Positions 1,683-15,863 of a DNA stretch of 64,000 nt are shown here, piece by piece. A program made the position numbers and the translations under genes. The stretch covers positions 930,001 to 994,000 of the forward strand of contig NZ_CP144374.1 in NCBI RefSeq assembly GCF_040451425.1. The letters run 5' to 3'. Positions within the stretch are counted from its first letter, which is position 1, and the number at the start of each line of letters is the position of its first letter. Below the pieces are notes generated by a model. That model was not told the DNA's origin. It ran no database searches and was given only the letters and a program-made list of their open reading frames with translations. Origin of the DNA: Thermodesulfovibrio sp. 3462-1. Lineage in GTDB: Bacteria; Nitrospirota; Thermodesulfovibrionia; Thermodesulfovibrionales; Thermodesulfovibrionaceae.

Positions 1683-1797
1683 AATTTCTTATTTTATGAA
1701 ACTTTAAAATATTTTTTTGTTCTCTTTCGGGAGAATTAAATTTATCCTTTCTGTTTGCAATAACCATGCCATGTTCTTACCAAGAATTTTCATAATA

Positions 1798-1888
1798 CGG
1801 AGAGGGAGGGATTTGAACCCTCGGTGGAGCTTTTAGACCCCACACGCGATTTCCAGTCGCGCCCGTTCGGCCACTCCGGCACCTCTCC
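1798..1888 (-). tRNA. tRNA-Ser (anticodon GGA)
   Basis: Read on the minus strand, the segment folds as a class II tRNA with a long variable arm. The acceptor stem is GGAGAGG/CCTCTCC with a G discriminator. The anticodon stem CGCGA/TCGCG encloses the loop CTGGAAA, giving anticodon GGA for UCC/UCU serine codons. The T loop GTTCAAAT is present. The 3' CCA is not encoded: the bases after the discriminator are TAT, so CCA must be added afterwards. It lies convergent to the antiporter gene and downstream of a small unknown gene on the same strand. Confidence 0.96.
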
Positions 1889-1909
1889 AGAGCTTTATTA
1901 TTTTAGCAT

Positions 1910-11592: not shown

Positions 11593-11868
11593 ATGAAGCT
11601 TCTTGATTTTTTGAGAGTTCTTGCAAGACAATTAATTGACAATGATTATAATGAGGACACTTTAAAGGATCTGTCTCTTATGGACATTGATTTACATCAA
11701 ATTAAAGAAGAGCTTAATTTTATTGAAGGAAGCGAACTTCTTGATCGTGAAGAAATTGATATGATTAGAGCTTTGCTTGCTTATTTATTAATGAAAGAAA
11801 CAGACCTCCATGAAGATGATATATACAGCTTTATTTTCAGCAAAGGAAAACAGATAGTATGGAACTGA
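11593..11868 (+). CDS. Small unknown protein between dprA and topA (91 aa)
   Basis: The 91-residue acidic protein is predicted helical and has no membrane segment. A stretch resembling Smg/DUF494 acidic helices is suggestive, and smg lies between dprA and a topoisomerase gene in enterobacteria. However, this protein is much shorter than the roughly 157-residue Smg, and I see no diagnostic motif. It starts directly after the dprA stop, with GGAGG inside the dprA tail as ribosome site, and overlaps topA by ten bases, so it is translated in step with both. Function unknown. Confidence 0.82.
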   Translation: MKLLDFLRVLARQLIDNDYNEDTLKDLSLMDIDLHQIKEELNFIEGSELLDREEIDMIRALLAYLLMKETDLHEDDIYSFIFSKGKQIVWN

Positions 11869-14228
11869 AAGGAAAAAATCTTATAATTGTTGAATCACCT
11901 GCAAAGGCAAAAACAATTAATAAAATTGTTGGAAAAGATTTTGAGGTAAAAGCATCTATTGGACACATTAAAGATCTTCCAGAGGACAGGCTTGGCATTG
12001 ATATTGAAAGAGGATTTCAACCTGAATACATTATAATTCCTGGTAAAGAAAAGATTGTAAAAGAACTCAGAGAGTCTGCAAAAAAAGCTCAAAAAATTTT
12101 CATAGCTACAGACCCTGACAGAGAAGGAGAAGCCATAGCCTATCACATCCGAGAAGAAATAAAAATCCCTGAAGAAAAAGTTTATAGAGCCATATTTCAT
12201 GAAATTACTCCGAATGCAGTAAAAACAGCAATTGAACATCCATCAAAAATAGATTTAAACAAGGTATATTCTCAACAGGCAAGAAGAATTCTTGACAGAC
12301 TTGTGGGTTACAATCTAAGTCCAATGCTTTGGAAAAAAGTTAAAAAAGGACTGTCTGCTGGAAGAGTTCAATCCGTTGCTTTACGAATGGTTGTTGAGAG
12401 AGAAAAAGAGATTCTTAAATTTCAACCTGTGGATTACTGGACCATACATGGTAAATTTGACAATGGCGAAAAACAACTTAATGCAAATTTATATAAATAT
12501 AAAGGCAAACTTGTTGTTGACAGAACAGATGAAAAAGCTAAATTTTTGATTACTACAGAAGAAGATGCCAAGAGAATTCTTCAGGAACTTAAGACATTAA
12601 CCTATTCACTTAATAGGGTTGAAAAGAAAAGAAAAAAGAAAAATCCGCCTGAACCTTTCAGAACAGCAACGCTTCAGCAACAGGCTTCTACAATACTTGG
12701 TTTTTCTCCTAAGAAAACAATGATGCTTGCTCAACAGCTATATGAGGGAATTGATATAGAAGGAAGCAGAGTTGGACTTATTACATATATGAGAACTGAC
12801 TCTGTAAGGGTTGCCGAGGAAGCACAAAAATGGGCAAAAAAAATTATTGAGGAAACCTTTGGTAAAGAATTTGTAGGCACAGATAAAGGCAAACAAATTA
12901 AGAAAAGAACAACTCCAATACAGGATGCCCATGAATGCATAAGGCCTACTTATCCTGACAAAGCCCCGGCAGTCGTTAAAAAATATCTTACAAAAGAGCA
13001 GTATGCTTTGTATAAACTAATCTGGGATAGATTTCTCGCAAGCCAGATGGCAGAAGCAGTGATTGAGCAAACCACATACATAATTGAAGACACCATACAT
13101 TATTCGGATGATTCAAAATTTAATATTCAAAGTTCAATGAATATTGTACAATTCAGAGCAAGTGGTTCAGTTGTTGTTTTCCCGGGATTTCTCATGCTCT
13201 ATAAAGATGAAGAAACTGAACAGGATAATTTATTACCTTTGATGGAAGAAAAAACTCAACTAAAGCTTATTGAAATTGAATCAGAAAAACATACAACAGA
13301 GCCTCCACCAAGATACACAGAAGCAACACTTGTTAAAGCTCTTGAAGAAAAAGGCATTGGCAGACCCTCTACCTATGCAACAATACTAAGTACAATTCAG
13401 GAAAGAGGATATGTAAAAAAACTCAAGACAAGGCTTTATCCTACATATCTTGGTTTTGTTGTAAATGACCTGCTTGAAGAAAAATTTCCTGAGCTTATGG
13501 ATTACAATTTTACCGCAAAAATGGAAGAAAACCTTGATAAAATTTCTCTAAATGAAGTGAAATGGGATAAAGTCATTGAAGAATTTTATAAAGAGTTTAA
13601 AAAAGATCTTGAAGAAGCTTTAAAAATTGGCAAAAGAACAAAACCAAAAACAATTAAGACAGCAGTAAAATGCGAAAAATGTGGTAAAGACATGGTTATA
13701 AGATGGAGCAAAGGCTTACCATTTTTAGCATGTTCTGGCTATCCTCAATGCAAAAACACCAGATCATTGAACAATAATGAAAACCACAAAGAGACCAAAC
13801 CTACAGACAAAATATGTCCACAGTGCGGAGCTCCACTTGTTATTAGAAACGGTAAAAGAGGAGAATTTATTGCTTGCTCAAGATATCCAGAATGCAAACA
13901 TACTCAATCAATCACTGCTGGAATAAAATGTCCTGAATGTGGTGGAGATATTTTAAAAAAACAGACTAAAAAAGGAAGAAGTTTTTGGGCTTGTTCTAAT
14001 TATCCGGAATGTAAATTCACACTCCCTACTGAACCGATTTCAGTGGAATGTCCAGAATGTAAGTCTCCGTATATGTTAAAAAAGAAAAATAAAAAGGGTG
14101 AAGAATTTTTAATTTGCCATAACAAAGCCTGTAAAGGTAAAATAAAAATAAATGAAAACTCAGCTGGGACCGGCCCTGCGCAACAGAAAGATGTGAACCC
14201 CGCCAGGTCCGGAAGGAAGCAACGGTAA
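11859..14228 (+). CDS. topA: DNA topoisomerase I
   Basis: The 789-residue type IA topoisomerase has an N-terminal Toprim domain (VESPAKAKTI near residue 12; DPDREGEAIA near residue 88). The active-site tyrosine is Tyr310 in GLITYMRTDS. Four C-terminal zinc ribbons follow between about residues 605 and 765, each a pair of CXXC-type knuckles; the last is CX2C-X14-CX4C. It relaxes negative supercoils. It overlaps the preceding small gene by ten bases. Oddly, the last 20 codons (14166-14228) are also the 5' half of the SRP RNA gene, so the extreme C-terminus is dictated by RNA structure. These residues come after the last zinc ribbon and are probably dispensable. Confidence 0.96.
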   Translation: MELKGKNLIIVESPAKAKTINKIVGKDFEVKASIGHIKDLPEDRLGIDIERGFQPEYIIIPGKEKIVKELRESAKKAQKIFIATDPDREGEAIAYHIREEIKIPEEKVYRAIFHEITPNAVKTAIEHPSKIDLNKVYSQQARRILDRLVGYNLSPMLWKKVKKGLSAGRVQSVALRMVVEREKEILKFQPVDYWTIHGKFDNGEKQLNANLYKYKGKLVVDRTDEKAKFLITTEEDAKRILQELKTLTYSLNRVEKKRKKKNPPEPFRTATLQQQASTILGFSPKKTMMLAQQLYEGIDIEGSRVGLITYMRTDSVRVAEEAQKWAKKIIEETFGKEFVGTDKGKQIKKRTTPIQDAHECIRPTYPDKAPAVVKKYLTKEQYALYKLIWDRFLASQMAEAVIEQTTYIIEDTIHYSDDSKFNIQSSMNIVQFRASGSVVVFPGFLMLYKDEETEQDNLLPLMEEKTQLKLIEIESEKHTTEPPPRYTEATLVKALEEKGIGRPSTYATILSTIQERGYVKKLKTRLYPTYLGFVVNDLLEEKFPELMDYNFTAKMEENLDKISLNEVKWDKVIEEFYKEFKKDLEEALKIGKRTKPKTIKTAVKCEKCGKDMVIRWSKGLPFLACSGYPQCKNTRSLNNNENHKETKPTDKICPQCGAPLVIRNGKRGEFIACSRYPECKHTQSITAGIKCPECGGDILKKQTKKGRSFWACSNYPECKFTLPTEPISVECPECKSPYMLKKKNKKGEEFLICHNKACKGKIKINENSAGTGPAQQKDVNPARSGRKQR
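14114..14143 (+). promoter_or_regulatory. Candidate promoter for SRP RNA inside topA
   Basis: TTGCCA (14114-14119) and TAAAAT (14138-14143) lie 18 bases apart within the topA coding region. Transcription would begin near 14150, about 15 bases before the SRP RNA stem, so some 5' trimming would be needed. Alternatively the RNA is cut from the topA-dnaX message. Confidence 0.35.
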
Positions 14229-14263
14229 GCATTCTTTTCTGTGTGCCGCAGGAAGTCGGTCCC
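14166..14263 (+). ncRNA. ffs: Signal recognition particle RNA (4.5S-type, small bacterial form)
   Basis: The segment contains the universal SRP domain IV signature: GTGAACCCCGCCAGG, then CCGGAAGGAAGCAACGG with the GGAA tetraloop and the asymmetric loop bases. The 5' GGGACCGGC pairs with the 3' GTCGGTCCC over nine base pairs. A T run follows, compatible with a terminator or processing end. The RNA binds Ffh and targets nascent membrane and secreted proteins to SecYEG through FtsY. Length is about 98 nt, the compact form without the Alu domain. Its first 63 bases are also the end of topA, and dnaX begins 16 bases after it; an ffs gene next to dnaX is known elsewhere. Confidence 0.95.
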
Positions 14264-14279
14264 TTTTTAAGGATTAAAA

Positions 14280-15863
14280 ATGGCATATCTGGGGCTGGCA
14301 AGAAAATATAGACCTCAAAAATTCTCTGACCTTACAGGCCAAGAAGTGGTTGTAAAGATACTTGAAAATTCATTAAAAACAGGCAAAATTTCTCATGCCT
14401 ATATTTTTTCAGGGCCTAAAGGAGTTGGTAAAACATCAACAGCAAGAATTCTTGCTAAAGCACTAAACTGCATGGACTCTCAAAACAAACCCTGTGACAA
14501 ATGCCCCTCTTGCACTGCTATAAAAGAAGGCAGAGCAATGAGTGTGATAGAAATAGATGCTGCATCTCATACTTCAGTGGAAAATATAAGGGATTTAAGA
14601 GAAAATATCAGGTATGCTTCTGTAGAAGGAGTTTATAAAGTTTACATAATTGATGAAGCTCATATGCTCAGCCAATCAGCCTTTAATGCTTTCTTAAAAA
14701 CACTGGAAGAACCACCTCCCCATGTGGTATTTGTTCTGGCAACAACTGAGCCAAGGAAAATTCCTCTCACTGTTCTAAGTAGATGTCAGCATCTTCAATT
14801 CAGAAGAATTCCGGTTAATTTAATAAAACAGAGACTCCAGTTTATTTGCAAGAAAGAAAACATAGATATCACAGAAGAAGCGCTCTACACTATAGCGTCA
14901 AATGCTGAGGGAAGTATGAGAGATGCTTTAACACTGCTTGATCAGGTAACATCATTTACAGATAAAATAACGCAGGAGGATGTAAATTTATTAATTGGTG
15001 GAACTGATATAAAAATACTTTACGAACTAACTGAAGCCTTAATTGATGGTGATAAAGAAAAAATTGTCTTAAAAGTAGAAGAACTCAACAGCACTGGCAC
15101 TGATTTCAAGCGGCTGACCACTGATTTAATCCAATTTCTGAGAAATACTCTTGTCAGTAAAATTACAAAAAATTTCAAATTATATATAACTGAATCAGAG
15201 TCGGAATTAATTGAAAATCTAAGCAAAAAAACATCTGAAGAACATCTGGTGCTTCTGCTTAAGGAATTAATTAATTCTGAATTTGCAATAAAAAATTCCT
15301 TTTTCCCGAGAATTATTTTTGAAATAACCCTTCTTAAGCTAAGTTTTCTGTCTTACTTCAAAAATATTGACGAAGCTATAAAAGAAGTTAGAAAATCTTA
15401 CGCTTCTCTGGAAAATATAAAGCCTCAAAAATCTTTGATTCAATATATAAAGCATTCACCCGAGGAAACACAAACTTCTCAGAAAATCACATCTCAGACC
15501 AAAGAAGCAATCTGGCAAAAATTTCTTGAAAAACTTGAAGCTCACAATCATTTACTTGCCATGAAAATTAGGCATGCTAAAGTTAATTTTGAAAATGATG
15601 AAATCCAATTGATTTACAACGGTGGTGCTTCTCTGTATGCTGATTCTGTAAAGGAAAATCTTACAGACATTCAAAATTTATTGAAAGAATCAGGATTTGA
15701 TGGTAAGATAACTATAAAAACTCTGAAAGATTTAAATACGCAGAAGTCAAAAGAAAATTTAACAGAAGAAATAATTAATCATCCTCTTGTTAAAAAGACT
15801 TTACAACTTTTTGAAGGAAGAATATTTAATATAATACCTAAAAAAGGAGGAGAAAATGTCTAA
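14280..15863 (+). CDS. dnaX: DNA polymerase III gamma/tau subunit
   Basis: The 527-residue clamp-loader ATPase has Walker A GPKGVGKTS near residue 45, a four-cysteine zinc site (CMDS..CDKCPSC, about 63-82), Walker B IIDEAHML, and the SRC arginine-finger motif near residue 165. Domain III ends near residue 360, and a divergent C-terminal region follows (tau-type contact domain). DnaX loads the beta clamp and links polymerase to helicase. It lies just after the SRP RNA and overlaps ybaB by eight bases, the usual dnaX-ybaB-recR order. Confidence 0.96.
   Translation: MAYLGLARKYRPQKFSDLTGQEVVVKILENSLKTGKISHAYIFSGPKGVGKTSTARILAKALNCMDSQNKPCDKCPSCTAIKEGRAMSVIEIDAASHTSVENIRDLRENIRYASVEGVYKVYIIDEAHMLSQSAFNAFLKTLEEPPPHVVFVLATTEPRKIPLTVLSRCQHLQFRRIPVNLIKQRLQFICKKENIDITEEALYTIASNAEGSMRDALTLLDQVTSFTDKITQEDVNLLIGGTDIKILYELTEALIDGDKEKIVLKVEELNSTGTDFKRLTTDLIQFLRNTLVSKITKNFKLYITESESELIENLSKKTSEEHLVLLLKELINSEFAIKNSFFPRIIFEITLLKLSFLSYFKNIDEAIKEVRKSYASLENIKPQKSLIQYIKHSPEETQTSQKITSQTKEAIWQKFLEKLEAHNHLLAMKIRHAKVNFENDEIQLIYNGGASLYADSVKENLTDIQNLLKESGFDGKITIKTLKDLNTQKSKENLTEEIINHPLVKKTLQLFEGRIFNIIPKKGGENV

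Follow-up and report, generated by a model that had tools for sequence, protein, structure and literature searches.

How does a protein gene come to end inside a structural RNA, and which of the two products then sets the bases that they share? The question is raised by a locus of Thermodesulfovibrio, a genus of heat-loving bacteria, in a 64,000-nucleotide stretch of the genome of Thermodesulfovibrio sp. 3462-1 (the window). There topA, which encodes DNA topoisomerase I, runs into the gene for the signal recognition particle (SRP) RNA (ffs or scr) on the same strand. A first-pass annotation had claimed that the topA frame crosses the first 63 bases of the RNA, that its stop is a TAA belonging to the RNA, and that the last 20 residues of TopA are thus encoded by SRP RNA sequence. 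The coordinates bear this out to the base and to the residue (ORF 11859-14228, RNA 14166-14263; Table 1). The 20 sense codons of the overlap read GTGPAQQKDVNPARSGRKQR and coincide, at 14166-14225, with the 5' strand of the RNA; it follows from the frame that ribosomes finishing topA would cross that strand. The account that we favour, and that we consider likely as a whole, combines an ancestral fusion of topA to the RNA gene, an RNA promoter embedded in topA, shared bases dictated by the RNA, and a protein tail that is tolerated.

Table 1. Features discussed in the text, in positions of the window
Feature	Position	Strand	Remarks
topA, DNA topoisomerase I, C4 zinc ribbons at C-terminus	11859..14228	+	789 aa, single ORF
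Probable -35 element TTGCCA of the SRP RNA promoter	14114..14119	+	TTGC at fixed spacing in 14/14 genus members; TopA residues 752-754
Probable -10 element TAAAAT	14138..14143	+	TAMAAT in 14/14, 18-nt spacer; topA linker residues 760-762
Remainder of topA linker (residues 763-769), with presumed transcription start and SRP RNA 5' leader	14145..14165	+	Open in 14/14
topA/SRP RNA overlap	14166..14228	+	63 nt: 20 codons (TopA residues 770-789) and stop
TAA, topA stop and part of conserved SRP RNA GGUAAG	14226..14228	+	14/14 genus members; 91/103 other Nitrospirota
SRP RNA (bacterial small type, ffs/scr)	14166..14263	+	Terminal stem to terminal stem; Rfam match 14167-14265
dnaX, conserved downstream neighbour of SRP RNA	14280..15863	+	Starts 16 nt past the RNA stem
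tRNA-Ser(GGA), ancestral upstream neighbour of SRP RNA	1797..1889	-	Now ~12 kb off, opposite strand

TopA scores 805.7 bits against the NCBIfam equivalog topA_bact (TIGR01051), over its cut-off. Pfam finds the Toprim (PF01751), catalytic (PF01131) and C4 zinc-ribbon (PF01396) domains all present, the combination that marks a bacterial DNA topoisomerase I (type IA). The AlphaFold2 prediction for the C-terminal 190 residues is confident for the zinc ribbons and has a pLDDT below 50 for the last 24 residues. The SRP RNA matches the covariance model RF00169 over its full length (model 1-97 of 97) with 82.7 bits against a gathering score of 40, and an Rfam search of the genome (1.82 Mb) finds it as a single copy. 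With the stem GGGACC/GGUCCC included, the fold spans 14166-14263, and the terminal pairs of this stem are kept in all genus members. The Ffh-binding core, with its GGAA tetraloop and AGCA internal loop, is conserved, AGGUCCGGAAGGAAGCAACGG being nearly invariant across the genus (14/14). The RNA is predicted to fold strongly (-48 kcal/mol at 37 C, z -4.4). Downstream, the ribosome-binding site of dnaX abuts the 3' tail of the RNA in the gap at 14264-14279; in one relative (G006) this gap is about half as long.

Is the overlap peculiar to one sequence? We compared topA stops with ffs positions in the 14 Thermodesulfovibrio genomes in which an SRP RNA was detected (that of the window and 13 others; two incomplete genomes gave no match), a check that the first-pass annotation had suggested. 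In every one topA runs into the SRP RNA and ends at the same TAA, and this agreement rules out chance or sequencing error as the cause of the overlap. The idea that TopA truly ends earlier, through a frameshift or a sequence error before 14166, merits next to no credence: the 14 genomes were sequenced separately, their TopA proteins are 68-89% identical, and 13 of them retain an intact fourth zinc ribbon just ahead of the overlap. The TopA of G006 (L010) has lost zinc ribbons at its C-terminus, yet its frame still enters the RNA. The seven linker codons after the -10 element are free of in-frame stops in all 14 genomes, and both linker indels, deletions of three codons in G006 and of two in G008, are multiples of three. 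When neutral evolution was simulated, the probability that the linker stayed open by chance was 0.003-0.013 at four-fold-site rates and 0.02-0.13 at milder rates. Because this probability varies with the assumed rates, and the four-fold tree behind the simulation was built on only 71 sites, the open linker is a suggestive hint and no proof; selection for reading into the SRP RNA is possible.

Outside the genus the picture is different. Our comparison set comprised 103 SRP RNA loci of other Nitrospirota, none of which lies behind topA, and at none of these does a credible coding sequence extend into the RNA; the arrangement is absent from the other families sampled. Mechanical ORFs of at least 100 codons enter the SRP RNA at 14 of these loci. 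Eleven were dismissed as overlying tRNA-Ser and another (G233) as the shadow frame of a different gene, and the remaining two (G031 and G065) have no Pfam match. The register used by topA is open across the 20 codons in 94 of the 103 RNAs, with the TAA in the same place in 91. Both the open run and the stop are thus properties of the RNA that already exist across the phylum, and topA landed in the right register. For the same reason, 20 open codons are unsurprising in themselves. What is unusual is the fusion of topA to the RNA, together with the loss of the stop that topA once had and the persistence of this state throughout the genus.

Gene order suggests how the fusion arose. Many Nitrospirota have the order tRNA-Ser-ffs (scr)-dnaX-ybaB-recR. 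In Thermodesulfovibrio ffs likewise lies directly upstream of dnaX-ybaB-recR, whereas topA occupies the place of tRNA-Ser(GGA) and the RNA overlaps a protein gene. The tRNA gene is found less than 300 nt upstream of the SRP RNA at 71 of the 103 other loci, versus none of the 14 in the genus. It is the only tRNA gene in the window. In 16 outgroup genomes TopA has its own stop shortly past the last Cys, followed by an unrelated gene, and the tails vary in length and sequence. Since the overlap is genus-wide and absent elsewhere, since tRNA-Ser usually precedes the RNA, and since outgroup TopA ends at a stop of its own, topA was most likely brought up against ffs-dnaX, and deprived of its stop, by rearrangement in the Thermodesulfovibrio ancestor. 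The simplest history would have at least one rearrangement, in which topA parted from its previous neighbour and ffs was separated from tRNA-Ser. topA would thereby have come to lie directly before ffs-dnaX-ybaB-recR, and its own stop and the sequence that formerly preceded the RNA would have been lost. The frame would then have entered the RNA in a register that is open in the RNA itself, and terminated at the UAA already there.

Which product shapes the shared bases? The first-pass annotation held that the same DNA must satisfy both RNA structure and a reading frame. This double use is genuine and is maintained throughout the genus, with the refinement that the constraint is lopsided toward the RNA. 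Synonymous divergence (pS) is 0.072 in the overlap versus 0.67 in the body of topA. The overlap has a pN/pS ratio of 0.53. Non-coding SRP RNAs, when translated virtually in this frame, give a similar value of 0.69, and this resemblance leaves protein-level selection on the overlap unsupported. For the linker the ratio is 0.69 versus 0.24 for the topA body. Five base pairs of the RNA have changed on both sides (shuffle mean 1.6; 0 of 500 shuffles as high), and each of these pairs has its 5' partner within the topA coding sequence. One such substitution can be followed into the protein: in G006 pair 9-90 has flipped from C-G to G-C, and TopA residue 772 is consequently Glu, where most relatives have Asp. 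The sequence comparison therefore supports a one-sided constraint, in which the RNA sets the sequence and the protein tail follows. The tail appears to be dictated by the RNA because the register is open in SRP RNAs that have no topA before them, because paired columns covary and because the tail is predicted to be disordered. The 20-residue TopA tail is best understood as a passenger that the RNA brings along, presumably without function: the fold would fix the bases and TopA would bear a disordered tail as a tolerated by-product.

How, then, is the RNA made? The first-pass annotation had asked whether it comes from its own promoter or by processing of the mRNA. Our addition to that account is a promoter-like pair, TTGCCA-N18-TAAAAT (14114-14143), which lies in the last zinc-ribbon and linker codons of topA. 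Its conservation reaches positions that the protein leaves free. Codon 760 has T as its third base in all 14 genomes even though five amino acids (G, C, V, F and Y) occur at this position, codon 762 is always ATA and Cys codon 753 is always TGC. Among 500 windows of seven codons in the analysed topA region, synonymous conservation is highest in the overlap, followed by the -35 and -10 elements. The -35 element is imperfect (TTGCCA here, TTGCTA in G011 and TTGCTT in G006), and at 18 nt the spacer is on the long side. tRNA-Ser(GGA) in the window has a promoter-like pair of the same shape, TTGAAA-N18-TAAAAT. Because both elements are kept at fixed spacing with frozen third codon positions in 14/14 genomes, and because tRNA-Ser has a similar pair, the SRP RNA is probably made from the promoter embedded in topA rather than cut from translated topA mRNA. 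The promoter would be of the sigma-70 type, with its -35 at 14114 and its -10 at 14138. From the distance to the -10 we infer a start near 14150, and a 5' leader of about 6 to 15 nt would then be trimmed. In E. coli, the 5' leader of 4.5S RNA is removed by RNase P.

The main alternative source is the mRNA itself: the SRP RNA would have no promoter of its own and would be excised from a topA-ffs-dnaX transcript. The three genes are indeed tightly packed on one strand, with dnaX only 16 nt past the RNA, and we found no intrinsic terminator on the + strand between topA and ffs or between the SRP RNA and dnaX. Against excision stand the promoter-like elements, preserved at third codon positions and at constant spacing across the genus; moreover, an abundant RNA would have to refold from a strand that ribosomes had just crossed. 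We regard excision as unlikely, and in the account based on an embedded promoter most SRP RNA would not derive from topA mRNA whose SRP 5' strand is under translation. A function for the tail has marginally better prospects, though it too is improbable. The 20 residues might serve TopA, for example as a basic DNA-binding tail, with selection on the protein keeping the frame. The tail is near-invariant and rich in Arg and Lys toward its end; the linker stays open and its indels in frame throughout the genus, even in G006, where zinc ribbons have been lost; and the lysine-repeat C-terminal domain of actinobacterial TopA is credited with high processivity (PMC7398561). Against this, the invariance is fully expected from the RNA, the pN/pS values of overlap and linker are those given above, the tail is predicted to be disordered, and outgroup TopA tails differ in both length and sequence.

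The position of the stop could also matter for regulation. Terminating ribosomes might disrupt SRP structures that form in read-through transcripts, or might tie the translation of topA to that of dnaX or to the supply of SRP RNA. The stop-free linker in all 14 genomes would fit such a role, as would the strength of the SRP fold and the short distance to the dnaX start, but the TAA sits just where the RNA alone would place it, and we find this reading very unlikely. The evolutionary form of the proposal is that the topA stop has been selected to lie inside the SRP RNA because termination there acts, giving fewer read-through SRP folds or a coupling of topoisomerase, SRP RNA and DnaX. This too is unlikely, marginally more so than excision; if true, it would make the locus an overlap of a protein gene and a housekeeping RNA with a regulatory role.

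Overlaps of protein genes with structural RNAs occur in compact genomes, such as those of animal mitochondria. The Thermodesulfovibrio locus resembles them in that a coding sequence and a structured RNA share bases, including the stop. It differs in occurring in a bacterial genome of some 1.8 Mb, in being 63 nt deep, in involving the SRP RNA and in extending across a genus. For the proposed transcription the nearer parallels are MicX, MicL and DapZ, bacterial small RNAs whose promoters lie within the coding sequence that precedes them (reviewed in PMC9438474). As in those cases, a stable RNA has a candidate promoter on the same strand in the 3' part of a protein gene, so that synthesis independent of the mRNA is possible, and transcription probably works here as it does there. 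Unlike them, the RNA is a single-copy housekeeping RNA whose folded body, beyond its leader, holds 20 codons and a stop; nor is a terminator shared with the host mRNA, dnaX coming next. Small RNAs of the MicX, MicL and DapZ kind regulate mRNAs by base pairing; the RNA here belongs to the SRP RNA family. In a literature search with incomplete coverage of subscription journals we found no published case of a coding sequence whose end lies within an SRP RNA, and no transcription start-site maps for Thermodesulfovibrio.

The locus thus offers a genus-wide case in which an essential protein gene ends in an essential structural RNA and borrows its bases as a stop. It shows how a rearrangement that attaches a coding frame to a non-coding RNA can be tolerated, and which constraint then prevails. 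An annotation pipeline that bars overlaps of this kind would cut back topA or the SRP RNA in error. With 14 natural variants at hand, the questions of promoter versus processing and of tail function are directly testable.

Two neighbouring genes deserve mention. In several outgroup Nitrospirota (L058-L073) topA is followed by a P-loop gene whose product begins with GIGGxxSGAGKTT and is MobB-like by its N-terminus. In the window, a 91-aa frame (11593-11868) lies between dprA and topA and shares 10 nt with the start of topA; it has no match in Pfam or NCBIfam, and its position is like that of smg in the order dprA-smg-topA.
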